Assembly: GCA_016188575.1 (NCBI GenBank)
Contig: JACPHN010000156.1
Span: 1-18,742 of the forward strand
Length of the DNA: 18,742 nucleotides
Origin: Candidatus Schekmanbacteria bacterium
GTDB lineage: Bacteria > CSSED10-310 > JACPHN01
Reading direction: 5' to 3'
Shown here: positions 2,004 through 14,232 of the stretch, one piece after another
Numbering within the stretch: the first letter of the stretch is position 1
Layout of the letters: every line of letters begins with the position of its first letter
Translations under genes and position numbers: made by a program
The notes under the pieces: model-generated
The model's input: the letters and a program-made list of their open reading frames with translations, nothing else
What the model was told of the DNA's origin: nothing
Databases searched by the model: none

Positions 2004-2024
2004 CGGCGTGGCGAGGGGCGTCAG
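2000..2024. terminator. Possible short bidirectional hairpin between convergent genes
   Basis: CTGACG at 2000-2005 pairs with CGTCAG at 2019-2024 across a 13-nt loop, and the arms contain the TGA stop codons of both converging genes. There is no T-tract on either side and the stem is only six pairs. A terminator role is a guess based on position. Confidence 0.2.
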
Positions 2025-2815
2025 GCGGTGGGCCGCGGCGCCGTCTCGGGGATGTCCGGCAGTCTGCCAAGGAGCCGAAGCAAGCCGTCCAGGATGCTGA
2101 GCGGATGCGGCGGACAGCCCGGAACGTACAAGTCGACGGGAACAACCGCGTCGGCGCCGTTCAGCACCTGCGGCGAATCCACGTAGGGCCCCCCTGAAAT
2201 CGCGCAGGCGCCGACGGCGATCACAATCTTGGGCGCCGGGACCGCCTCGTAGGTTTTCCGCAGAGCGAGCTCCATGTTCCGGCTCACTGGGCCGGTAATA
2301 AGCAACCCGTCCGCGTGGCGCGGTGATGCGACGAACTGGATGCCGAAGCGACCGAGGTCAAACACCACCGTGCCGAGCACGTTGACGTCCGCCTCACAGG
2401 CGTTGCAGCCAGCGGCGCTGACCTCCCTGAGCTTGAGCGAGCGGCCGAGAAGGCCCCGCAGCTCGCGCCCGAGCGCCTCGGCCCTGGCCAGCATTTTGCT
2501 CTCGCTGATGATCAGACCCGCTCGGGTGCGCCCGGCGAGATGCCAGTCCTGGGTCATGCGGATGGCACCATGCGGGCACGCTCGCTCGCAATCCACGCAG
2601 AAAAGACACCTTCCGAGGTCGAGCGCGATGCCGTTGTCGCCCGGTACCAGCGCATCCGTGGGACAGGCTTCGGCACACTCGCCGCATCCATTCGGGCACC
2701 GCGACGAGTCGAGCACCGGCAGACCGCGATAGGGCGCGGGAAGCGCAGGCTCGCTCCGGGGGTACGTGAGCGTCCGGTGTCCCTGCTTCAGACGGGATAC
2801 GAGGACTTTCCACAT
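2021..2815 (-). CDS. hyfI: Ehr complex small subunit: ferredoxin fused to NuoB/HyfI-like [4Fe-4S] protein
   Basis: A 264-aa peripheral-arm electron-transfer subunit. I chose the ATG at 2815 because AGGTGA lies six bases upstream; the open frame continues further, but with arginine-rich low-quality sequence. Residues 36-90 form a two-cluster ferredoxin domain: Cys40, 44, 47 and 51, then Cys70, 73, 76 and 80, each set ending CP. Residues 130-250 match the NiFe-hydrogenase small subunit/NuoB family. They keep the ligands of the proximal cluster (N2-like): Cys137 and Cys140 (CNAC), Cys204 (GACAISGG) and Cys234 (PGCPP). In E. coli hydrogenase-3/4 the ferredoxin (HycF/HyfH) and small subunit (HycG/HyfI) are separate proteins; here they are one chain. 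It is the last gene of the operon, 68 bp after the large subunit. The electron route from ferredoxin clusters to the proximal cluster is intact by sequence. Confidence 0.9.
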   Translation of the reverse strand: MWKVLVSRLKQGHRTLTYPRSEPALPAPYRGLPVLDSSRCPNGCGECAEACPTDALVPGDNGIALDLGRCLFCVDCERACPHGAIRMTQDWHLAGRTRAGLIISESKMLARAEALGRELRGLLGRSLKLREVSAAGCNACEADVNVLGTVVFDLGRFGIQFVASPRHADGLLITGPVSRNMELALRKTYEAVPAPKIVIAVGACAISGGPYVDSPQVLNGADAVVPVDLYVPGCPPHPLSILDGLLRLLGRLPDIPETAPRPTA

Positions 2816-2883
2816 GATGTCACCTGGCACCTTTCGGCGCGGATGCGGGCAACGCCGTCGCTGCCGGCGCCGCCCCGCCATGC

Positions 2884-4401
2884 TCACAAATCGTGACCGC
2901 AGTAGGACAAGTTGAAGCTCTTGTTGCACAGAGGGAAGTCCGCGATCTGCTGATTACGGAGCGCAATCGCCAACCCCATCCAGTTATGGAACGAGGGGTC
3001 GACCACCTTGTACCGGGCAAACCGCCCTCCCTTGTCCGTAATCGCAACGTGACAGACCTCGCCGCGCCAGCCTTCCACCAGTGATACGGAAAGCGAGCTT
3101 GGCGCCGTCTCCGGCACGGGACTGTGGATGTGACCCGCCGGAAGCGTCCCGAGCTGATCGCGAATAAACGCCGCCGAGCGCTTTATTTCCAGCCACCGCA
3201 CATAAGCCCGGGCAAAGACGTCGCCCGTATCCCAGGTGGAAACAGGAATTTGGGCGAAACGGAAGATCCCGGAGGGAAGCTCATAGCGGCAATCCCGCTC
3301 GAGGCCGCAAGCGCGGGCGGCGACGCCGACCAGGCCGAGATCCCGACAAGTATCCACCGACACCGGTCCCGTCTCCTCGAACCGCGCCATCACCGACGAC
3401 GTATTCCATAGCAAGTCGGCGGCATTCGTCACCTCCCGCTCGGCGGCCTCCAGACGTTCCAGGATCTGGCTGACCTGCGCGCCATCGACATCGAACCACA
3501 GCCCCCCGGGTCGAATCAGCGAGCGCCCGAAGCGGTTGCCGCAGAGGAGCGCCGTGGTGTTCAAGAAGTCGCCGCGGATGCGGCCGCAGTATGAAGATGT
3601 CGGCAGAAAGCCGATGTCGGTAGCCAGCGCCCCGAGATCACCCGTATGGTTGGCAAGCCGTTCCAGCTCCAGAGCAATACCGCGCAGCGATTGCGCTCGC
3701 GCCGTGACGGTAACGCCGCCGAGCGACTCCAGGATTTCACTGTAGGCGATGGCGTGGGCCACGGAGGTGTCGCCGGCCAGGGTTTCGATGAAGTGGAGAC
3801 TGCGCTTGTCCGGACCTCCGAGCAGGCCGCTCTCCACCCCGCGGTGTTGAAAGCCCAGGGAGATCTCCAGATGCAGCACCTCTTCGCCATGGCACTGAAA
3901 GCGAAAATGCCCTGGCTCGATGATGCCGGCGTGGACCGGTCCGACGGCCACCTCATGAACCTCTTCGCCGGCAACCTGGAAGAAATCGGTCACGCCAGGC
4001 AGCAGCGCGGCGTCCGCGGGCCGGCCCCAGGCGTCCTCTCCGGCGCGGTACGAGCGGTGGAAGCGGATAGGCTTGAGCCACGGATGCCCCAGCGGCCGCA
4101 CTCCCCACTGCTCCGCGATCTCGCGCTCGAACCAGTGCGCCTGAGGGCAGTCCGGGGTCAAAGCGGGGTACCTGTCCGCGACGTCGGTCGCGAGCACGAG
4201 CAGGTTTCCGGAAAATCCATCGACGAGAATCGCAAACAACCGCAGCGAAGACGCGTCCAGCGGATTCCCAAAGAAGGCACCGAGGCGCGCGCCGGCGCCG
4301 GCGGCACGGATCACGTGGTCGCGCAGCTCCGCGACGCTCAGCACCGGGACATCGGCCAGCGCGACGGTCTGGCCGTTGTGCATGGACAAGGCCGCAGTCA
4401 T
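2884..4401 (-). CDS. hyfG: Ehr complex large subunit: NuoC-NuoD/HyfG-like, lacking all [NiFe] cysteines
   Basis: A 505-aa protein. The ATG at 4401 overlaps the preceding TAA by one base (TAATG) and has GGGAGG upstream; a GTG two codons earlier is possible. Residues 15-125 are a NuoC-like (30-kDa) domain with the signature FEREIAEQWG...GHPWLKPIRF. Residues 150-505 are the NuoD/HycE/HyfG large-subunit domain (HAGIIEPGHFRF, LGFQHRGVE, LERLANHTGDLG). Active group 4 hydrogenases carry CxxC near the first third and DPCxxC at the C-terminus. Here the first site reads AGDTSVAH (209-216), with the His kept and no Cys. The C-terminus reads DPSFHNW...NKSFNLSY without the motif. The chain also has no extension for a maturation protease to remove. 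It should therefore not bind Ni-Fe or handle H2, and instead resembles complex I and Ehr complexes. Cys492 and Cys501 lie near the end but do not form CxxC. Confidence 0.92.
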   Translation of the reverse strand: MTAALSMHNGQTVALADVPVLSVAELRDHVIRAAGAGARLGAFFGNPLDASSLRLFAILVDGFSGNLLVLATDVADRYPALTPDCPQAHWFEREIAEQWGVRPLGHPWLKPIRFHRSYRAGEDAWGRPADAALLPGVTDFFQVAGEEVHEVAVGPVHAGIIEPGHFRFQCHGEEVLHLEISLGFQHRGVESGLLGGPDKRSLHFIETLAGDTSVAHAIAYSEILESLGGVTVTARAQSLRGIALELERLANHTGDLGALATDIGFLPTSSYCGRIRGDFLNTTALLCGNRFGRSLIRPGGLWFDVDGAQVSQILERLEAAEREVTNAADLLWNTSSVMARFEETGPVSVDTCRDLGLVGVAARACGLERDCRYELPSGIFRFAQIPVSTWDTGDVFARAYVRWLEIKRSAAFIRDQLGTLPAGHIHSPVPETAPSSLSVSLVEGWRGEVCHVAITDKGGRFARYKVVDPSFHNWMGLAIALRNQQIADFPLCNKSFNLSYCGHDL

Positions 4402-5909
4402 TACCACCCTCCCACCGCCTGGGAGGCCTCGTGGACCGCCCGTAGCACTACCGGGGGAACGTACAGACCCAGCACCAACACGCCGATTCCCAGAAGCGCA
4501 GGCGGCACGACGGCCAACACGCGCTCGGAGCCCAGGCGAAGCGGCGTCGCTCCACCTGGTTCATCGCCGCCCAGCAGCGCCTTTTGTGGCCTCCCCTGCG
4601 CCATCGGCAATACCGCCGTCGCCATTCCCACAAAGATCAAGGCCAGCAGCGCAAGGTAAAAAACGGCAATGACCCCACGCCCCTGATCCAGTGCGCCCTT
4701 GAGAATCGTGAGCTCGCTCAGGAACGGACCGAAGGGCGGCGAGCCGGTGATGGCGAGGAAGCCGGCCACCCACAAGACGCCCGAAATCGGCAAGCCGCGG
4801 AGGATGCCGCCGACTTCGGCGATGGATTTTGTCCGGTATGCGGCAAGAATGTTCCCGGCCACCAGAAAGAGCATCGCCTTGGTGAGCGAGTGGTTGACTG
4901 CATGCAGCATGGCGCCCAGACTGGCGGCACCACCGAGGCCGACCCCGAGCGCGAGGATGCCCACATGTTCCACGCTCGAATACGCGAGCAGGCGCTTGTA
5001 ATCCGTCTGCCTGAGGATGAACACCGCCGCGAAGGCCATCGAGAGCAGGCCGAAGAGCACGAGGAGCTCCTGGCCGAAACCGGCCTGCCCGGCCGCGGCA
5101 CACACTTGTTGCGCCCGCAAAATCGCCAGGAACGCGCAGTTGAGCAGCGCGCCGGACAACAGCGCCGAGACCACCGAAGGCGATTCACTGTGCGCGTCCG
5201 GGAGCCAGGTGTGCATGGGCGCCAACCCCATTTTTGTGCCATATCCCACCAGGAAAAACAGAAACGCAGCCTTGAGCCACGGGATGTCCAGGCGGGGCCC
5301 CTGTTTCACGAGCTCGGCAAGAAGCATGGACTCCTGGCCGCTGCCGGTGCGCGACGCCGCCACGACGAGGAAGATGTTTCCGAGCAGCGCCAGGGCGATG
5401 CCCACGGAACACACCAGCAGGTACTTCCAGGTCGCTTCGAGGGAGCGGTGATGCCGGTGAAAGTAGATCAGCGGGGCGCTGACCAGCGTCGTCGCCTCCA
5501 CCGCCACCCACAGAATCCCGAAGTGCTGGCTGACGGCTACCATCGTCATGGTCGCGTGAAAGAGCAGCAGGCTGCCCGTGAAGCGCGCCTCGGGAGCGTT
5601 GCTGAAAGCGACGGCCTCCTCGAAATCCTGGCGCCGGCCCTGCACTTCCCGGTCGAGGTAGCCCACCGAATAGAGCGCGGCCATCAGGAACAGACAGCTC
5701 GTAATGCTCAGGAAGAGCAGACCCGGTCCATCCAGAGCGATCCATCCCCCAAGCTCCGGAGCCGGCCTCCGAATCCAGGCGGCCAGAGTCAACAGCGTGT
5801 GGGCCGCGGCTCCCACAATGAGCAGACCGCGCCGCAACGCGTCGGAGCGAATCGCGAGCGAAATCACACCAGCGATCGCTGGCACCAGAACCAGACACAC
5901 GATCATCAT
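4401..5909 (-). CDS. hyfF: Ehr complex antiporter-like proton-conducting subunit (HyfF/NuoM-NuoN type)
   Basis: A 502-aa polytopic inner-membrane protein of the Mrp-antiporter-like family (NuoL/M/N, HyfB/D/F). Key charged residues of the half-channels are visible: Glu138 in the TM5-type helix (WVAVEATTLVSAP), Lys226 in the TM7-type segment (VGYGTKMGLAPMHTWLPDAH), His340 and Lys344 (VNHSLTKAMLFL), and Glu399/Lys404 in a late helix. The discontinuous-helix signature SPSVVSALLSGALLN is also present. Its role would be to move H+ or Na+ across the membrane, driven by the redox arm. The ATG at 5909 is the first of tandem Met codons, with AAGGA upstream and only three bases after the hyfE stop. It overlaps hyfG by one base. 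Confidence 0.92.
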   Translation of the reverse strand: MMIVCLVLVPAIAGVISLAIRSDALRRGLLIVGAAAHTLLTLAAWIRRPAPELGGWIALDGPGLLFLSITSCLFLMAALYSVGYLDREVQGRRQDFEEAVAFSNAPEARFTGSLLLFHATMTMVAVSQHFGILWVAVEATTLVSAPLIYFHRHHRSLEATWKYLLVCSVGIALALLGNIFLVVAASRTGSGQESMLLAELVKQGPRLDIPWLKAAFLFFLVGYGTKMGLAPMHTWLPDAHSESPSVVSALLSGALLNCAFLAILRAQQVCAAAGQAGFGQELLVLFGLLSMAFAAVFILRQTDYKRLLAYSSVEHVGILALGVGLGGAASLGAMLHAVNHSLTKAMLFLVAGNILAAYRTKSIAEVGGILRGLPISGVLWVAGFLAITGSPPFGPFLSELTILKGALDQGRGVIAVFYLALLALIFVGMATAVLPMAQGRPQKALLGGDEPGGATPLRLGSERVLAVVPPALLGIGVLVLGLYVPPVVLRAVHEASQAVGGW

Positions 5910-5912
5910 GGT

Positions 5913-6557
5913 TCAATCCTTGAGGCTTGCCATCTGCTCGGTGTCGAGGTCGTCAAACTCTCGGTTGATGTGGAACATCGTTATCCCCATGACGAACACC
6001 GCAACGAATACATCGAGCAAGACTCCGAGCTCCACGATCAGCGGCGCTTCTTGAGCCAGCGCCACGCCGAAGATGTAGATCCCATTCTCCAGGACCAGGT
6101 AGCCGAGCACCTGGGTAAGTGCTTTCTTGCGGCTGACGATCAGAAACAGCCCGGAGAGGATCGTAAACAGTGCAACCGGCACCACGACGGGCGAGGCGAC
6201 CGCCGTGGGTAGAGGTAGGCGCGTGCCGACCCAGAGGGAAAGGCCAAGCATGGCGGCTCCAACCAGCAGCGACGACGTGTACCCTACGAACGGCTCTACC
6301 TCACGTCTCACTCTGGCCTCCCTGAGCGCGCGGAATAACAGGCGCGGAAAGACCACGCCCTTCAGCGCCATCGACACCGCCGCCAGAAACAACACGTGGC
6401 CCGTGAGGTCGCCCCCCCGCGAAGCCAACGCCAGCAGTCCAAGGACGACCCCCTGAAGGGCGACGACGCGAACGGACGCTCCGAGACGGCTTGACCCAAG
6501 GAGCCTCAAGTTGGTCAGAAAGACCAAGATCAACAGCGTGTCGAGCCACAAGGTCAT
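5913..6557 (-). CDS. hyfE: Ehr complex membrane subunit HyfE-like (NuoK domain)
   Basis: A 214-aa inner-membrane protein with about six to seven hydrophobic helices, the usual size for HyfE. The C-terminal half is NuoK-like. Glu157 (VLENGIYIFG) and Glu176 (IVELGVLLDVFVAVFVMGI) correspond to the two buried glutamates of NuoK that connect the quinone end to the antiporter chain. The N-terminal half (1-110) is the HyfE-specific extension. The soluble tail FDDLDTEQMASLKD is charged. ATG 6557 has GAGGTGA placed over the end of the upstream hyfC-like gene (TGA at 6562-6564), which indicates translational coupling. Confidence 0.9.
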   Translation of the reverse strand: MTLWLDTLLILVFLTNLRLLGSSRLGASVRVVALQGVVLGLLALASRGGDLTGHVLFLAAVSMALKGVVFPRLLFRALREARVRREVEPFVGYTSSLLVGAAMLGLSLWVGTRLPLPTAVASPVVVPVALFTILSGLFLIVSRKKALTQVLGYLVLENGIYIFGVALAQEAPLIVELGVLLDVFVAVFVMGITMFHINREFDDLDTEQMASLKD

Positions 6558-6561
6558 GCGG

Positions 6562-7473
6562 TCACCTCAGAGACAGGACCAGCGCCAGCACCGAGAGCAA
6601 CCCGGCACCGACGAGCAGTTGCGGGATACGGATCAGCCGCAGCCGGGCCATGCAGGACTCGACCACGCCGACGAGGACCGCGATTCCGAAGATGGCGATG
6701 ACAGCGACGGCCACCTCGATCCAAAGGTTGCCCGTGCGCACCGGCAAGGCCAACCCGGTGAGGAGCGCGCAAAACACCCATAGCTTCAAGGATGCGCCGT
6801 AGAGGATAAACGCGAAATCCGGGCCGCCGAAGTCCAGGACCATGACTTCATGGATCATGGTCAGCTCGAGGTGGGTATTGGGGTCGTCCACCGGAATGCG
6901 CGCATTCTCCGTCAGCAGGACCATGAAAAGCGACGCGGCGAGAAGCGCCTGCATCGCGCCCGCCTGCGACCAGTGCGTGGACGACAGACCCGAGATCATC
7001 TCCGACAAGGACAGGCTGTGAGTGTGGTACGCGACGGCGGCCAGGCCGAGCAAGAGTGCCGGCTCGGCCAGCGCGGAAAATTGCACCTCGCGGCTGGCGC
7101 CCATGCCCTCGAAGCTCGACCCCGTATCCAGGGCGCCGATTACGGCAAAGAAGCGGACCAGACCGAGCAGATAAGCCAGCAGAATGAAGTCCCCCGGAAA
7201 GGCGAGCAGCGCGGGCAGCGCCGCCAGCGGCAGCAGCGTCGTCGCCAGTAGAATCGCCGCAAGGCCCACGACCGGAGCGGCGCGAAACACCCAGGTCGTC
7301 GTGCGGCTGTACACCGCGCCCTTCCGCAACAGCTTCCACAGGTCTCGATAGGGCTGCGCAAGCGGCTGACCGACGCGGCCAGCAAAGATGGCCTTGGTGC
7401 GATTGATCACGCCGAGCAGCAGGGGAGACAGGACGAGCGCGAGCGCGGGATGGACAAGAGCGATGGTCTGCAT
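6562..7473 (-). CDS. hyfC: Ehr complex membrane subunit HyfC/HycD-like (NuoH family)
   Basis: A 303-aa inner-membrane protein, NuoH/HycD/HyfC family, which anchors the peripheral arm and lines the entry path for coupling. Diagnostic segments: NRTKAIFAGRVGQP and YRDLWKLLRKG (24-51), the first cytosolic loop; ALDTGSSFEGMGASREVQFS (114-133) with acidic residues Asp116, Glu122 and Glu129; and the acidic loop ENARIPVDDPNTHLELTMIHE (189-209). About eight membrane helices are present. The ATG at 7473 lies three bases after the hyfB stop. Length and motifs are complete. Confidence 0.92.
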   Translation of the reverse strand: MQTIALVHPALALVLSPLLLGVINRTKAIFAGRVGQPLAQPYRDLWKLLRKGAVYSRTTTWVFRAAPVVGLAAILLATTLLPLAALPALLAFPGDFILLAYLLGLVRFFAVIGALDTGSSFEGMGASREVQFSALAEPALLLGLAAVAYHTHSLSLSEMISGLSSTHWSQAGAMQALLAASLFMVLLTENARIPVDDPNTHLELTMIHEVMVLDFGGPDFAFILYGASLKLWVFCALLTGLALPVRTGNLWIEVAVAVIAIFGIAVLVGVVESCMARLRLIRIPQLLVGAGLLSVLALVLSLR

Positions 7474-7476
7474 GGA

Positions 7477-9474
7477 TCAGCCCAACTTCCAGACCAGAAG
7501 CACGAGAATGGTCACTGCGATATAGAGCACGTACAGTTGAACCCGGCCGTGCTGCAGCCATCGCAGACGCCCGAGCGTCCGATCGATTGCCGCAAACCCG
7601 GGCGCATAGACATGCTCCTGAAAGACGTCCGGGGTCGCGGTGTGAAATGTTGACCGGGAGAGCGGGAAGAGGCCGCGTGGTGGGGCGAAATGCCGCCGCG
7701 TCCGCAGGACCTTGTCGAAAAGTAGCGTCAACGGTTGTGCAAAGGACGATGCCGTGTACTGCATGCGCGCGGAGGGCGACGCGTAGCCGCAATCCCAGGT
7801 TACGGACTCGCTGACCTGCCGCCCGGCGAGAAGCCGGCTGCGGCCGACCGCCAGCAGGGCCACCAGCGCAGCGAAGCCAACCGACACTACGACCACCGTC
7901 GACAGGGCCTCCGAAGCAAACGCAAGCTCCGCCGCGAGCTCGCCCGCCGGTCGGCCGCTGACGGCAGCGACCACACCGCCCAGCACACCAATCGTCCACG
8001 GCGCGCAGAACCCCACGGCGACACAGCCGGTGGCGAGCACGACCAGCGGAACGCGCATGGCCAACCCGGTCTCGTGGGCCCTGGCTGCGGCGCTGCCGCG
8101 CGGCTCTCCCAGGAACACGATGCCGAACGCCTTGGTGAAACACGCCGTGGCGTGACCGCCGATCAGCGCCAGCGCGGGGATCACCGCGAGCACCGCGAGC
8201 CCCGCCAGGGAGCGGGGTTCCGTGGCCCCCCGATAGGCGCCCAGATAAATCAATAGCTCGCTGATGAAACCGTTCAGAGGCGGAAGTCCCGAAATGGCTA
8301 CGGCGCCGATCAGGAACGCGACGCCGGTCCAGGGCATGCGCTTGAGCAGCCCGCCGAGATGATCGATCTCGCGCGTTCCCGTGCTGTGCAAAACCGCGCC
8401 GGCACCGAGAAAGAGCAAACCCTTGAAGAGCGCGTGGTTGAGCACGTGCAGCAGGCCACCGCCAAAACCGAGCACGAGCAGCGGCAGCGATCCGTAGCTC
8501 ATGCCGATCAGACCGACTCCGAGCCCCAGCGCTATGATGCCGATGTTTTCGACGCTGTGGTAGGCGAGCAGGCGCTTCAAGTCGTGCTGCGCGAGCGCGA
8601 AGAGCACGCCGAGGATGCCGGACGATGCGCCGATAGCCAACAGCAGCCATCCCCACCACGGTGCCGGTGCTCCCAGGAAGGTCAAAACCCGCAGCAGACC
8701 GTAGATGCCGGTCTTGATCATCACGCCCGACATCACCGCTGACACGTGACTGGGCGCGGCAGGATGAGCCTCCGGAAGCCAGATATGCAGCGGCATGAAC
8801 CCGGCCTTGGTCCCGAAACCGACGACCGCCAGCGCGAAGAGAAGCCCGGCGCCGTCCACGAGCCCCGCCTGCCCACGCGCCGCCATCTCGGCGAAGTCCA
8901 GGGCACCCGCTCCGCCATGGCCTAGCAGCACGAAAAGCGCCAACAGAAACGCCGTCCCGATATGGGTGGCGACCAGGTACGTCCAGCCCGCGGCGCGGGC
9001 GCTTTCGTTCTCGTCCTCGAAGGTAACGAGAAAAAACGAAGCGAGCGACATCAGCTCCCAGCAGACCAGGAACAGCACGCCGTTGCGCGCGAGCACGACC
9101 ATGACCATGCTCGCGACGAGCAGATTGAAGAAAAAGTGGTGCGCCCCGAGGCAGCGCGCGCCGCGGAGTCCTCCGAGGTACTCGCCACCATAAATGGCCG
9201 CGAGCAGCGACACAGTCAGGATTGGCAGGAGGAAAAACGCGGAAAGAGGATCGAGCTCGACGCTGAACGCGCCGTACGGAACGCTCCAGGCGTGCTGCAG
9301 GCTGTCGGTCTGTCCGCCGAGTAGCACGCGGAGCGTCGGAATCAACCCGAGGATCGCGCCACCGGCGACGCCGCCGATGCCCAGTGCCACCGGCAGCCGT
9401 GGCGATCCGCTCGCGAGCAGGGCGGACACGCCGCCGAGGAGCATGATGCCAACGCCGATCAGGAGAAGGGTCAT
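7477..9474 (-). CDS. hyfB: Ehr complex large antiporter-like subunit (HyfB/NuoL type)
   Basis: A 665-aa polytopic membrane protein, close to the length of E. coli HyfB. Antiporter-family signatures are intact: Glu140 (LVCWELMSLASFFLV), Lys223 (VGFGTKAGFMPLHIWLPEAHP), Lys254 (VMIKTGIYG), His347 and Lys351 (LNHALFKGLLFLGAG), and Glu406 (LNGFISELLIYLG). The C-terminal third carries further helices after a CGY...RMQYTASSF segment typical of HyfB. Together with the HyfF-like subunit it gives two ion channels, fewer than the three of hydrogenase-4 or complex I. ATG 9474 overlaps the stop of the EIIA gene (ATGA), with GGAG upstream. The 917-codon open frame on the same strand that spans this gene and part of hyfC is a high-GC shadow. 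Confidence 0.93.
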   Translation of the reverse strand: MTLLLIGVGIMLLGGVSALLASGSPRLPVALGIGGVAGGAILGLIPTLRVLLGGQTDSLQHAWSVPYGAFSVELDPLSAFFLLPILTVSLLAAIYGGEYLGGLRGARCLGAHHFFFNLLVASMVMVVLARNGVLFLVCWELMSLASFFLVTFEDENESARAAGWTYLVATHIGTAFLLALFVLLGHGGAGALDFAEMAARGQAGLVDGAGLLFALAVVGFGTKAGFMPLHIWLPEAHPAAPSHVSAVMSGVMIKTGIYGLLRVLTFLGAPAPWWGWLLLAIGASSGILGVLFALAQHDLKRLLAYHSVENIGIIALGLGVGLIGMSYGSLPLLVLGFGGGLLHVLNHALFKGLLFLGAGAVLHSTGTREIDHLGGLLKRMPWTGVAFLIGAVAISGLPPLNGFISELLIYLGAYRGATEPRSLAGLAVLAVIPALALIGGHATACFTKAFGIVFLGEPRGSAAARAHETGLAMRVPLVVLATGCVAVGFCAPWTIGVLGGVVAAVSGRPAGELAAELAFASEALSTVVVVSVGFAALVALLAVGRSRLLAGRQVSESVTWDCGYASPSARMQYTASSFAQPLTLLFDKVLRTRRHFAPPRGLFPLSRSTFHTATPDVFQEHVYAPGFAAIDRTLGRLRWLQHGRVQLYVLYIAVTILVLLVWKLG

Positions 9475-10184
9475 GCCTGGCTCCGGGGCTCGGGAGCAGA
9501 GGCGCTCGGCGCGCCGAGCTGGCCTTCGATGCGAGCGACTTCTCGCAGGAGCTCCGCGTCGGGCGCGCGCCGGCCAAGCAGGGCCTTGAAACCGGGATCA
9601 CGCAAGGTAAACGCGAGCCTCGACAGCATGTGCAAGTGGCTGCGAACCGTCGGGCTGATCAGGGAAAACAGCGTGTGCACCGGTTGCCCGTCAAGAGCGC
9701 AGAAATCGACCGGGGTGTCGAGAAAGCAGAGCGTGATCGTGGGCCGCGTTACGTGGAGCACGATGGGGTTGCGGACGTGGGGAATGGCAATGCCGTCCCC
9801 GATGCCTGTTGAACCGAGCGCTTCCCGGGCCAGGAGCACGCCGTGGAGAAACTCGCGATCCACATCCTTGCCCACCTTCAAGAGGTTCACGACGGCCCGG
9901 AGCACCGATTCCTTGTCAGCGCCTTTCACGCCGCGAAAGATCCCGCCGGCTTCGAGCGCTTCGAGCAAGCCCGTCATGCGCTCGAGGCCGTTTTCCTGCT
10001 CGCGGAATACGTCCGCTGCGGCGTCGATCTTGTTCGCGGTCGCCCACTCCAAGAGCTCGGCCCGATTAAAGCGGTACTGCTCGTTTACCAAATGCGCCGG
10101 CAGCGTGCCGTCGTCAATCCACCGAAAGATCTGTTTCTCCGGAACGCGGAGAATCCTTGAGGCGTCGCGGACAGTCAGTTGCAC
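9471..10184 (-). CDS. HTH-PTS EIIA (PtsN/fructose-type) fusion, presumed regulator of the Ehr operon
   Basis: A 237-aa protein from GTG 10184, chosen because AGGGTG precedes it and the residues from there (VQLTVRDASRIL) begin the domain directly; the frame extends to 10298 without domain-like sequence. Residues 1-55 are an excisionase/MerR-like helix-turn-helix (ASRILRVPEKQIFRWIDDGTLPAH...YRFNRAELLEWA). Residues 70-215 are a PTS EIIA type-2 domain. The phosphorylatable histidine is His136 in the canonical context GIGDGIAIPHVRNP. No EIIB or EIIC domain is present, so sugar transport is not implied; a sensor or regulator of the PtsN class is more likely. It is the first gene of the operon and its TGA overlaps the hyfB ATG. 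Control of the complex by phosphorylation, or of its own promoter through the HTH, is inference. Confidence 0.88.
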   Translation of the reverse strand: MQLTVRDASRILRVPEKQIFRWIDDGTLPAHLVNEQYRFNRAELLEWATANKIDAAADVFREQENGLERMTGLLEALEAGGIFRGVKGADKESVLRAVVNLLKVGKDVDREFLHGVLLAREALGSTGIGDGIAIPHVRNPIVLHVTRPTITLCFLDTPVDFCALDGQPVHTLFSLISPTVRSHLHMLSRLAFTLRDPGFKALLGRRAPDAELLREVARIEGQLGAPSASAPEPRSQA

Positions 10185-10516
10185 TTTTCGTTCACCCTTT
10201 CGGTTCTCACGAGAAAAGTCACTTCGATCTTGTGCGGGGAATGAACCGTGGAGAATGGAGTCAAGCATCACGGTTGTGCGGCGGGAGCCCGAGAACACGG
10301 ACAGCGCACTTTAGGCCAGGTCCGACGCGTTGTCAAGACTTAAGGGGGCCGCCGGAGCTTTCAGTAGAGAATCCGGGCTGGTGGGTCAGTGTCAAAGGGA
10401 GCCGGCCGAGCACGTCCGACCCGTGCGGCTACAGCAGGGGACCTCGCGGCGTGGCGGGGGCGGTAGACGTAGGGCGGGCGACGCCCTGCCGTGACCACTG
10501 CGGTGGGCTCGCGGAA
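10185..10516. other. Intergenic region: Ehr operon promoter side and end of the signalling operon
   Basis: No gene is supported. The part next to 10184 must hold the Ehr operon promoter, but I found no convincing -35/-10 pair or sigma-54 site. At 10400-10430 there is an imperfect minus-strand hairpin (AGCC/GGCT outer arms, GCACG/CGTGC inner arms) downstream of the cyclase stop. It lacks a T-tract, so a terminator role is uncertain. Confidence 0.4.
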
Positions 10517-13318
10517 CTAGCCCGCCACCGTACCCACCAGCCGTCCCTCCACCGGGTAGCAGGCGACCGGGTCGGCGAAGCCCTTCGCCTCCAGCCGCCG
10601 AGTCGCCCCCAGGACGTAACCGTCTCTGACCAGCACTCCAACCGCGTGCCCGACGAGGATCGCTCCCGGCTCCGCAAGCTGCTCGAGGCGCGCCGCGAGG
10701 TTCACGGGGGTGCCGATCACCGTGTAGTCGAGCTGCCCCTCCCCGCCGAAGCTGCCCACCGTCACGTAGCCCGCGTTGATCCCCATGCGCACCTGCAGCC
10801 CGCTGGGCAGGCCCTCCTGCTGCTCCCACCGCGAGTTGAGCACCGCGAGCGCCTGCCGCATCCCCAACGCCAGCTCGATCGCCCGCCTGGCCTGCTCCTC
10901 CCGGGACATCTCCGCCGGCGCCCCGTAAAAGGCCATGAAGCCGTCGCCCATGATCCGCCCGAGCGTACCGCCCGTCGCCGCCACCTCGCGCTGCATGGCC
11001 CCCAGGTAATCGTTCAGAATCACCGTGATCTGTTCCGGCGCGAGCTCCTGGCTTGCCTTGGTGAAGCCCACGAGGTCGCCAAACAGCATGGTTGCCCACC
11101 GCCTTTCCGAGGCCGCGACGGCCGGCAGCTCGCCGCGGAGGAGTGCGTCCACCACCGGCCTCGGCAGGTACCGGTGCACGGTCGCGGAGCGCAGCAGCTC
11201 CGCTACCTGGTCCCGCACGCGCTCCCCCAGGTGCCGGTTCCACTCTCGCAAGCCGTGGGCGTAGCGGCCCATCAGCACCAGGTTCCGGACGCGGCAGACC
11301 AGCTCCTGCGGATGGAACGGCTTGACCAGGTAGTCGTCGGCCCCATGTTCCAGGCCTTCCATTCGGGTGCCCACGTCGGCCTTCGCCGAGATCATGACCA
11401 CCGGAATACGGGAGCTCCCGGGAGTGTCGCGGATTCGCCGGAGCAGCTCGTAGCCGTCCATGACCGGCATCATGACGTCGGTGAGGACGAGATCGGGCGG
11501 AGCATCGCCCATCCGCTCGAGGGCCTCCGCCCCGTTTGCCGCGGTCAGCACGCGAAAGGCTGGCGAGAGGATGCGCCGCACGAGCTCCCGCATCTCCGGA
11601 TGGTCGTCGACGACGAGCACGGTGGCGTCGCCTTCCTCGCCCCCCACCTCGGCGTCGCGCGCACCTCCAGCCGCGAGCGGCGGGAGCGGGGGCAGGCAGG
11701 GTGGAGAGGACGGCACCAGATCCAGTGCGAGATCCGCCGATGCCAGCGACACCGCATCGAGGCCCTCGACCTCCGGCCGCGACTCCCGCCGACGATCCGG
11801 AATCCCCACCCCCCCGGCGGCCGGTGCCCCGACCAACGGCAGGGCCAGGCTGAAGGTCGCCCCCGCGCCCGGCTCGCTCGCCAGGGTGAGCGTCCCACCC
11901 TGCACCTCCGCCAGCTCCCGGGACAGCGCCAGGCCAATCCCGGTCCCCTTGTACCCGCTGACCTGCGCGGACGTCGTGCGGCCGAACCGCTCGAATACCC
12001 GCTCGTGCTCTTCCAGCGGGATCCCCGGTCCGCTGTCGCTCACCGCCACCCGCACCACCTCCTCGCCCGCCGACACCTCCACGGTCAGCGTGCCGCCGGG
12101 CGGGCTGAACTTGACGGCGTTGGAGAGGAGATTCAGCAGGATCTTCTCCACCTTCTCGCGATCGGCAACGGCGCGCGCCTCGTCCGTCGCGAAGCGGGTC
12201 GCGAGCGCCAGCTCCCGGCGGACCAGCCAGGAAGACACCGACGCCAGGAGGTCGCGCACCAGCCCGACGAGATCGAGCTCCTCCGCCCGGACCTGCATCG
12301 CCCCCGCCGCCAGCCGCGAGAAATCGAGCAGGTCGTCGATCAGGCGATAGAGGCGCTGGGCGTTCGAGCGCATGGTATCGAGCGTCGGGGCCAGCTCGGG
12401 GAGGCGGTCCCCGTAGTGGCCCGCCCGCATCGCCTCGAGCGGTGTGAGGATCAGCGTGAGCGGCGTCCGGAGCTCGTGGCTGACATTGGCGAGAAAGCGG
12501 CTCTTGAGCGCGTCGAGCTCCCGTAGCCGCGCCTCTCGCTCCTCGGCGCTCGTGAGCCGGGTGATGGTCTCCTGGAGGTCCCGGATCTTCTCACGCAACG
12601 CCGCGCGCATGGCCTCGAAGGCCGCGGCGAGCCGCCCCACCTCGTCCCGGCCAGCCGGCCCGACCTCGTGGTCCAGCTCCCCGCCGGCGATCCGCACGGC
12701 GTCCCGCGTCAGCCTGACGACCGGGCGGGTGACGCGGCGGACGAGGAGCAGCGCGAGGAGGCCGGCGGCGGCGAGCAGGAGGACGGACTCGAGCACGACC
12801 GCGACCAGACTCGCCCGGACCGCGGCGTCAACCTGAGCGAGCGAGAACCCGAGGCGGAGGACCCCGAAGCGCCGGTTCGTCATGGACAGGACTGGTACGG
12901 CGACCTCGAGCACCGGCGTGCCGCGCGCGGCGGAGTCCTGGATGAGGATGCTCTCGGCGGCCCACGCCCGCCGGCCGGTCTCGTCCCCATTCAGGGGTTC
13001 CCCGATTCGCTCCGGGTCCCAGTGCGCGATCGCCAGGTTGCCCTCCCCGGCTACCAGCGCATACAGGATGTCCTCCCCGTCCACCGTCCGCTGCATGGCG
13101 TCATTCACGAAGCTGAAGTTGTTGGCCATGACGGACTCCAGGAGCAGGACGGCGAGATTCCCGGCGATGACCCGGGCGCCGCCCTCGAGGTCGGTGCGGA
13201 GGATCGCCCGCTGCCGCCGGACGGCCAGGGTGCCGAAGGCCAGGACGAAGGCGGCCAGGAGGACCAGCACGAGGGCCGCGACCCGGGCGGCGAGGTGCCG
13301 GCGCAGGTAGCTGATCAT
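10517..13318 (-). CDS. Membrane hybrid histidine kinase with receiver and class III nucleotide cyclase domain
   Basis: A 933-aa protein. ATG 13318 overlaps the stop of the binding-protein gene (ATGA), with GGGGAGG upstream; the open frame extends far beyond this start in sequence belonging to another frame. Layout: TM1 about 11-31; periplasmic sensor about 35-165; TM2 about 170-193; HAMP about 194-245; short coiled coil; HisKA with His281 (VSHELRTPL); ATPase domain with Asn400, DSGPGIP (428-434) and GTGIGLALS; Pro-rich linker 495-560; receiver with Asp571/572, phosphoacceptor Asp614 (LTDVMMP) and Lys666; then a cyclase domain about 740-890. The cyclase keeps metal ligands Asp748 (FGDLVGFT) and Asp792 (MGDGFMAFYG), adenine-side Asp864 (DYTVIG), and Asn873/Arg877. 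Arg788 sits where adenylate cyclases usually have the base-selecting Lys. The kinase should phosphorylate the receiver and so gate cyclic nucleotide synthesis. Confidence 0.93.
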   Translation of the reverse strand: MISYLRRHLAARVAALVLVLLAAFVLAFGTLAVRRQRAILRTDLEGGARVIAGNLAVLLLESVMANNFSFVNDAMQRTVDGEDILYALVAGEGNLAIAHWDPERIGEPLNGDETGRRAWAAESILIQDSAARGTPVLEVAVPVLSMTNRRFGVLRLGFSLAQVDAAVRASLVAVVLESVLLLAAAGLLALLLVRRVTRPVVRLTRDAVRIAGGELDHEVGPAGRDEVGRLAAAFEAMRAALREKIRDLQETITRLTSAEEREARLRELDALKSRFLANVSHELRTPLTLILTPLEAMRAGHYGDRLPELAPTLDTMRSNAQRLYRLIDDLLDFSRLAAGAMQVRAEELDLVGLVRDLLASVSSWLVRRELALATRFATDEARAVADREKVEKILLNLLSNAVKFSPPGGTLTVEVSAGEEVVRVAVSDSGPGIPLEEHERVFERFGRTTSAQVSGYKGTGIGLALSRELAEVQGGTLTLASEPGAGATFSLALPLVGAPAAGGVGIPDRRRESRPEVEGLDAVSLASADLALDLVPSSPPCLPPLPPLAAGGARDAEVGGEEGDATVLVVDDHPEMRELVRRILSPAFRVLTAANGAEALERMGDAPPDLVLTDVMMPVMDGYELLRRIRDTPGSSRIPVVMISAKADVGTRMEGLEHGADDYLVKPFHPQELVCRVRNLVLMGRYAHGLREWNRHLGERVRDQVAELLRSATVHRYLPRPVVDALLRGELPAVAASERRWATMLFGDLVGFTKASQELAPEQITVILNDYLGAMQREVAATGGTLGRIMGDGFMAFYGAPAEMSREEQARRAIELALGMRQALAVLNSRWEQQEGLPSGLQVRMGINAGYVTVGSFGGEGQLDYTVIGTPVNLAARLEQLAEPGAILVGHAVGVLVRDGYVLGATRRLEAKGFADPVACYPVEGRLVGTVAG

Positions 13319-14232
13319 CGCGCCGCCTCCCCGTTCGCGGGGGCCTCGCTCCGTGGGGCGGAGACATCCAGCTCCGCCGCCGTGTAGAGATCCCGCCAGG
13401 CGCCCGGAACCAGCCGGTCGAGACGGACGTAGTCGAACCACCGCCGCCCGGTCGGGGTGTCGTGCAGTTTCAAGCCTTTCCGAAGCAGGATCTCCCGTTC
13501 CCGCGGGCTGGTGGTCGGGAACAAGACCACGACCGCGAGCGGGATCGGCGGCGACTCGTGGACGACGTGCATCGCCCGCCAGATGGCGGCGCTCCGCTCG
13601 CGGAGCACCTCGAACGCCCGGTTCGAGACGAGCGCCGCGTCGCCCTCGCCGTAGTAGACGCCCAGAAGCGCGGAGATCGAGGAGTCGGAGAGCTTCAGGT
13701 CTCCCAGGTCGGCGAGGTGGAGCTCGACCTTGCCGCCCGCTTCGGCGAGGACCTTGCGCTCGAAGCGGGCGGTGTCGGTCCCCCAGTAGTCCGGCGCGAT
13801 GAGCGTCTTGCCGGCGAGCTCGCCCAGGCCCCGCACCGCGCTCTGGCGGGAGATGACGACGCTGAGCGTGTGGGTCGGGGAGCCGCCGGGCCGTACGGTA
13901 TAGGCAACCATGTCCAGACCCCAGCGCGCGCGCTCGACGACGGCGAGCTCGGCAGGGATGGTGCCCCAGACAGGGTAGACAGCGCGCCGTGCACACTCGT
14001 CGAGGTACTTCTCGAGGTCGGGCAGACGGGCGAAGTACCTCAGCGTGAGCGGGAAACCGAGCGCTGGTACCAGCTCCGCATCGATCCATTCCTGGGCGAG
14101 CGCCGCGGTGTCCGTGCGGTTCTGCGCGACGGTATCGGGAAAGTAATAGATGGCCTCGCGCACCTCCTGCGCCCGAGCCATGAAAGGGCTCAGCAGGAGC
14201 ACGGCAGCGACCGGCGCGACCAGGAACCTCAC
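13315..14232 (-). CDS. Exported PhnD-like phosphate/phosphonate-type binding protein
   Basis: A 305-aa protein from GTG 14232 with a clear signal peptide (hydrophobic VAPVAAVLLL, predicted cleavage after ARA at residue 21). The mature part fits the PhnD/TAXI-like periplasmic binding fold: an early strand (EAIYYFP), ELAGKTLIAPDYWGTDTARF at about 136-155, the loop GVYYGEGDAALVSNRAFEVL, and a hinge strand PLAVVVLFPTTSPREREILL. No ABC permease or ATPase gene is adjacent. Instead the gene overlaps the sensor kinase by four bases, so its likely role is ligand presentation to the kinase sensor domain. The ligand is unknown. Upstream, AAGGATGGGG lies rather far from the GTG. Confidence 0.85.
   Translation of the reverse strand: MRFLVAPVAAVLLLSPFMARAQEVREAIYYFPDTVAQNRTDTAALAQEWIDAELVPALGFPLTLRYFARLPDLEKYLDECARRAVYPVWGTIPAELAVVERARWGLDMVAYTVRPGGSPTHTLSVVISRQSAVRGLGELAGKTLIAPDYWGTDTARFERKVLAEAGGKVELHLADLGDLKLSDSSISALLGVYYGEGDAALVSNRAFEVLRERSAAIWRAMHVVHESPPIPLAVVVLFPTTSPREREILLRKGLKLHDTPTGRRWFDYVRLDRLVPGAWRDLYTAAELDVSAPRSEAPANGEAAR

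Follow-up and report, generated by a model that had tools for sequence, protein, structure and literature searches.

The 18,742-nucleotide window analysed here (positions 1-18,742 of contig JACPHN010000156.1, assembly GCA_016188575.1, from a Candidatus Schekmanbacteria bacterium) raises the question of what a hydrogenase-4-like membrane complex does when its large subunit has lost every cysteine ligand of the [NiFe] centre. Seven close-packed genes on the minus strand, spanning positions 2021-10184, encode the six subunits of an Ehr (Ech-hydrogenase-related) complex and a leading protein that fuses a helix-turn-helix (HTH) domain to an EIIA domain of the phosphotransferase system (PTS), and we confirm this region as a complete Ehr operon. 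The first-pass annotation had identified an Ehr-type complex, and its gene set, its ligand loss and its position in an Ehr clade with 100/100 support all agree. That annotation counted six genes between these coordinates, which is correct for the Ehr subunits and omits the HTH-EIIA gene that the same coordinates include. The arrangement is not a product of chance, since 80 relatives (50-68% identity) have the same operon; these are the best 80 of at least 575 relatives recovered in one scan.

On the basis of sequence comparisons, we assign a probability of roughly 55% to the reading that Ehr is a NiFe-free relative of group 4 hydrogenases and complex I that operates as a redox-driven ion pump, probably fed by ferredoxin and delivering electrons to an acceptor that is not protons and probably not a quinone. 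Ehr complexes were reportedly defined by Coppi in 2005 and Marreiros in 2013, and the operon in the window is an Ehr in their sense. The family name dates from 2005 (Coppi, as cited in PMC13194489), and the family is also discussed in PMC6349859, PMC10284858, PMC7894505, PMC8691401 and PMC12342949. Its function remains unknown according to PMC12342949, and the initial remark that the electron donor and acceptor are not established accords with this paper as well as with PMC10284858 and PMC7894505, which call the function unknown or never investigated. Thus, the family is already known and the window adds another member, while the additions made here are a pocket signature, a set of four-cysteine sister operons, a link to the HTH-EIIA gene, and tests of maturation and quinone markers.

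The large subunit, EhrL (2884-4407, minus strand), is a HyfG/HycE-like fusion of NuoC and NuoD domains (PF00346, 2e-34; PF00329). When this protein and its 80 relatives (81 sequences) were aligned with Escherichia coli HycE, HyfG and NuoCD, all four [NiFe] cysteines were found to be replaced, with CGIC becoming AGDT at residues 211-214 and DPCxxC becoming NLSYCG at residues 499-504. The position of the first cysteine (A211) holds A in 74 sequences, S in five and C in two, and that of the second (T214) holds T in 69, S in nine, A in two and V in one. The third and fourth positions are S501 and G504 in 80 of 80 cases each. The alignment therefore bears out the earlier statement that all four ligands are missing, and the AGDTSVAH motif on which it drew is present, although at residues 211-218 rather than 209-216. 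The C-terminus (...GHDL) lines up with the end of processed HycE (...CTDR) and with the encoded end of NuoD (...DVDR). In hydrogenases, a C-terminal tail is cut off by HycI; the EhrL gene stops exactly at the HycE cut position, and so no maturation tail is encoded.

Displaced cysteines that might rebuild a four-cysteine NiFe site had been set in advance as a challenge to this claim, and none was found. C494 and C503, which lie near the site and are each conserved in 77 of 80 members of the window's subfamily, supply two cysteines at most, and together with C172, C274 and C289 they do not reconstruct such a site. The two Ni-Fe-binding CxxC motifs that mark catalytic group 4 [NiFe] hydrogenases are absent from the window protein.

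These two cysteines also bear on an MBS-like function, in which the proximal cluster would reduce sulfane sulfur or another disulfide, perhaps assisted by C494 and C503 in the window's subfamily. The archaeal sulfane sulfur reductase MBS/Mbx, whose structure is solved, provides a precedent, in that this group 4 relative has no NiFe site and also lacks the complex I quinone residues (PMC7684303). However, MBS keeps two of the four large-subunit cysteines, has a proximal cluster with three cysteine ligands and has lost the equivalent of glutamate E21 (PMC7684303), whereas Ehr keeps none of the four, conserves all four small-subunit cysteines in a hydrogenase-type CxxC ligand set, and retains the glutamate as E164. 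Most of the more distant, plasmid-borne Ehr proteins also lack C494 and C503. We therefore consider an MBS-like activity rather unlikely.

Direct alignment with solved proteins places E164, kept in 81 of 81 sequences, at the position of MbhL E21, a key residue for proton reduction, and places the invariant I163 and G212 (81 of 81 each) at the positions of Nqo4 H38 and Y87, which contact the quinone headgroup (PMC7684303). The invariant residues of the remodelled pocket comprise G212-D213, E164, H159, N495-K496-S497-F498 and the C-terminal SYxGxDL tail. Because the nickel ligands are lost, the formation of H2 from protons is excluded, and because the former NiFe cavity is rebuilt by invariant new residues, complex I-style quinone binding appears unlikely; we thus disfavour a quinone as the acceptor. 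As the most likely chemistry we propose, with modest confidence, that a small substrate other than a quinone is reduced at the E164/D213/K496 pocket in a proton-coupled reaction. We further suggest, quite tentatively, that Ehr could represent a third type among the complex I relatives that have no NiFe site, with a polar, proton-coupled pocket (E164, D213, K496 and GxDL), a substrate new to the superfamily, and a use tied to PTS phosphorylation through the EIIA-HTH protein.

The same conservation speaks to the proposal that Ehr is a decayed, non-functional hydrogenase. This has been stated for Geobacter KN400, whose ehr genes have acquired missense changes (PMC13194489). Across 63 sequences from many phyla, however, about 90 columns are invariant, including the new pocket, and the operon is intact, which makes decay a very improbable account.

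An AlphaFold2 model of the large-subunit monomer, built with a 63-row alignment (pLDDT 91.6, pTM 0.93), has as its best match in the PDB the HycE subunit of E. coli formate hydrogenlyase (7z0s_E, TMq 0.87), with NuoCD next. This closeness to NuoCD is one reason to consider that Ehr is a minimal complex I, that is, a ferredoxin:quinone oxidoreductase that pumps ions and holds the quinone headgroup in another way. Ehr belongs to the same superfamily and has a NuoH/NuoD-type interface, with homologues of NuoB, NuoCD, NuoH, NuoI, NuoK, NuoL and NuoM and the loss of all four nickel ligands in common with complex I, and it is carried by many respiring bacteria (rhizobia, Rhodococcus, Geobacter and Nitrospinales). 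In contrast to complex I, it lacks NuoA, NuoE, NuoF and NuoG, has the invariant I and G in place of the His38 and Tyr87 of NuoD, carries a CxxC rather than a CC motif at its proximal cluster, and forms a separate clade (100/100). Genome content is also suggestive, in that 17 of 44 Ehr genomes have neither MqnA/D nor MenD, and 11 of these 17, including the isolate Rectinema, have no UbiE either. On balance, we regard a minimal complex I as possible but doubtful.

A second marker concerns maturation. HypD is required for the maturation of [NiFe] sites. Of 45 Ehr genomes, 12 lack it, among them those of the isolates Geothrix paludis and Rectinema subterraneum, and Ehr is therefore apparently independent of it, although any single absence is weak evidence because draft genomes are incomplete. 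The host genome itself has HypD, two further genes for large subunits of NiFe hydrogenases and, on contig C198, its own complex I (these genes together occupy contigs C198, C271, C265 and C236).

How the site was lost can be approached through a tree of 61 large subunits, calculated with the ligand columns left out and rooted on NuoD. All Ehr rows form one clade (100/100), which is nested within the group 4 hydrogenases near HycE and HyfG (98/94). The window protein falls with rows from genera and orders that carry Ehr (Geobacter, Geomonas and Nitrospinales), apart from HycE and NuoD (100/100). Placement inside catalytic group 4 had been named beforehand as a result that would count against the proposed loss. 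The nesting was indeed found, yet the four-cysteine site is absent from the window protein: descent from catalytic hydrogenases follows from the nesting, and it does not restore the site. Because the whole clade is placed among four-cysteine hydrogenases, loss from a four-cysteine ancestor is the simplest reading, and it is most likely, judging from the tree, that Ehr lost nickel secondarily. A topology in which the NiFe-less rows form one clade is not rejected (p-AU 0.446), and the cysteines may have been lost once or several times.

Two rows within the Ehr clade, L114 (locus L139) and L115 (locus L140), keep the four cysteines in the motifs CGVC and LCYSCTDR. Like Ehr, they have the six-gene order, GPIHAGIIEPGHFRF, DFPLxNKSF and no C-terminal extension, and unlike the window protein they retain a NiFe-type four-cysteine motif. 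We consider the L139 and L140 operons to be candidates for hydrogenases ancestral to Ehr. L111 (locus L141) belongs to a second, divergent Ehr operon of an Opitutaceae genome, which ends in TDR rather than GxDL and has an HTH-EIIA-like gene upstream.

If hydrogen and a conventionally bound quinone are set aside, the remainder of the complex indicates how it might work. The alignments uphold the initial view that the iron-sulfur relay, the NuoH- and NuoK-type glutamates and the antiporter lysines are intact. HyfH (two [4Fe-4S] clusters; PF13187) and a HyfI/NuoB-like part (proximal [4Fe-4S] cluster; PF01058) form a single fused protein (2021-2815, minus strand), in which 12 cluster cysteines are conserved, eight of ferredoxin type and four of NuoB type. 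The longest open reading frame (ORF) begins at GTG 2929, and we favour ATG 2815 as the start because position 1 of the NCBIfam HyfH profile aligns at residue 39 of this frame. In the membrane arm, the HyfC/HycD/NuoH-like anchor (6562-7473, minus strand; PF00146, 9e-29) conserves E137, D196, E203 and E272. It also has the Ehr-specific residues D197, H201 and H208 (75 of 75 each) within the segment corresponding to NuoH 214-225, which is turned towards the peripheral arm in complex I. The HyfE/NuoK-like subunit (5913-6557, minus strand; NCBIfam hydrogenase 4 membrane subunit, 1e-28) conserves E157 and E176 (75 of 77 each) and D182 (76 of 76). The antiporter-like HyfF (NuoM/N-like; 4401-5909, minus strand; NCBIfam hydrogenase 4 subunit F, 9e-110) conserves E138, K226, K305 and K344, and HyfB (NuoL-like; 7477-9474, minus strand; NCBIfam hydrogenase 4 subunit B, 2e-189) conserves E140, K223, K300, H343/H347, K351 and E406.

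These features suggest that low-potential electrons, most likely derived from ferredoxin, would enter both [4Fe-4S] clusters of the HyfH part and move on to the proximal cluster in the HyfI part, after which a substrate would be reduced within the former [NiFe] cavity. This redox step would in turn power ion translocation through HyfC, HyfE, HyfF and HyfB, a coupling that we infer from the conserved residues. Ferredoxin is proposed as the donor because the entry domain has two clusters and NuoEFG-like genes are absent. Expression of the operon is probably governed by the PTS-responsive EIIA-HTH protein.

Several points weigh against this picture of a ferredoxin-fed pump with a non-quinone acceptor. 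The pocket is deduced from the alignment because loops 157-165 and 503-507 are of low confidence in the monomer model, being disordered without partners. The quinone-pathway markers can give false negatives, since the host has a complex I even though none of MqnA/D, MenD and UbiE scored above the cut-off in its genome. No dehydrogenase, ferredoxin or reductase gene recurs among the 80 loci to link a donor or an acceptor to Ehr. Finally, the Ehr proteins of Geobacter sulfurreducens are more abundant on formate than under hydrogen conditions, which the authors connect to formate dehydrogenase (PMC7894505).

The last point leads to the idea that Ehr serves a formate-dehydrogenase complex as its membrane module, a proposal made for Margulisbacteria and Saganbacteria on the strength of fdhA and nuoE/F-like genes in their genomes (PMC6349859). 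Neither a formate dehydrogenase nor a HycB-type ferredoxin gene, the linked genes expected of a formate hydrogenlyase, is present in the window or recurrent at the 80 loci. A formate dehydrogenase or other soluble partner within the operon was accordingly rejected, and the proposal appears improbable. The E. coli Hyf and Hyc systems are nonetheless close to Ehr in subunit set and order and in the proton-transfer glutamate; the window differs from them in lacking the NiFe cysteines, the maturation tail, a HyfA/HycB-type protein, a formate dehydrogenase and the HycI and HycH genes. The G. sulfurreducens Ehr (GSU0739-0745) resembles that of the window in its Hyf-like membrane arm, in a small subunit with iron-sulfur clusters and in a large subunit without NiFe. 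Geobacteraceae are represented in our alignment not by this locus but by L046 and L068, which fall in the window's clade (100/100) with approximately 55-57% identity.

The first gene of the operon (9471-10184, minus strand) encodes a fusion of HTH_17, an excisionase/MerR-like domain (PF12728, 5e-11), with a PtsN-like PTS EIIA domain (PF00359, 1e-24), and is a putative phosphorylation-controlled regulator. Its longest ORF extends over 9471-10298, and the GTG at 10184 fits the start methionine of the family (30 of 32). The gene adjoins Ehr in 37 of the 58 loci, from many phyla, that could be tested, it is the only recurrent operon partner upon clustering of flanking ORFs, and 31 of 32 close relatives retain the phospho-acceptor H174. 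A full-text literature search of partial coverage for EIIA with Ehr or hydrogenase-4 returned no paper on this link, which is probably new.

Ehr is widespread, and its subunits are often annotated as those of a hydrogenase or formate hydrogenlyase. The at least 575 relatives come from many phyla, and the best 80 include members of Verrucomicrobiota, Planctomycetota, Zixibacteria, Myxococcota, Omnitrophota, Acidobacteriota, Nitrospinota, Spirochaetota, Thermodesulfobacteriota, Elusimicrobiota, Fibrobacterota, Gemmatimonadota, Chloroflexota and others. Among eight genomes of the host phylum, the host alone carries Ehr. Identification of its substrate would give many bacteria of soils and sediments, and many fermenters, a further respiratory enzyme, and would reveal how the NiFe site disappeared along a path parallel to that of complex I. 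The HTH-EIIA link and the four-cysteine sister operons offer direct handles for genetics and ancestral comparison.

More distant relatives reside on plasmids of rhizobia, Azospirillum, Cupriavidus, Rhodococcus and Allomeiothermus. Plasmid 3 of Variovorax sp. PBL-E5 (L005) holds two different Ehr operons inside 18 kb. Proteobacterial plasmid loci (L005, L008 and L010) repeatedly lie near genes for a universal stress protein, YoaK and a spermidine-synthase-like protein, and an HPr-like gene is also close by in L008. The window has a single HyfB, whereas an additional HyfB-like gene is found at some Geobacteraceae loci. In L020, L022, L034, L042, L044 and L068, a second HyfB-like gene is situated between HTH-EIIA and the main HyfB, which suggests that some lineages have a longer antiporter arm.

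In the window, the Ehr operon is immediately preceded on its own strand by a hybrid sensor gene (10517-13400, minus strand), whose single product combines cache-like, HAMP, histidine kinase, response regulator and adenylate/guanylate cyclase domains. Just upstream of it, a PhnD-like periplasmic binding protein (13315-14232, minus strand) is perhaps the sensor partner of this cyclase.

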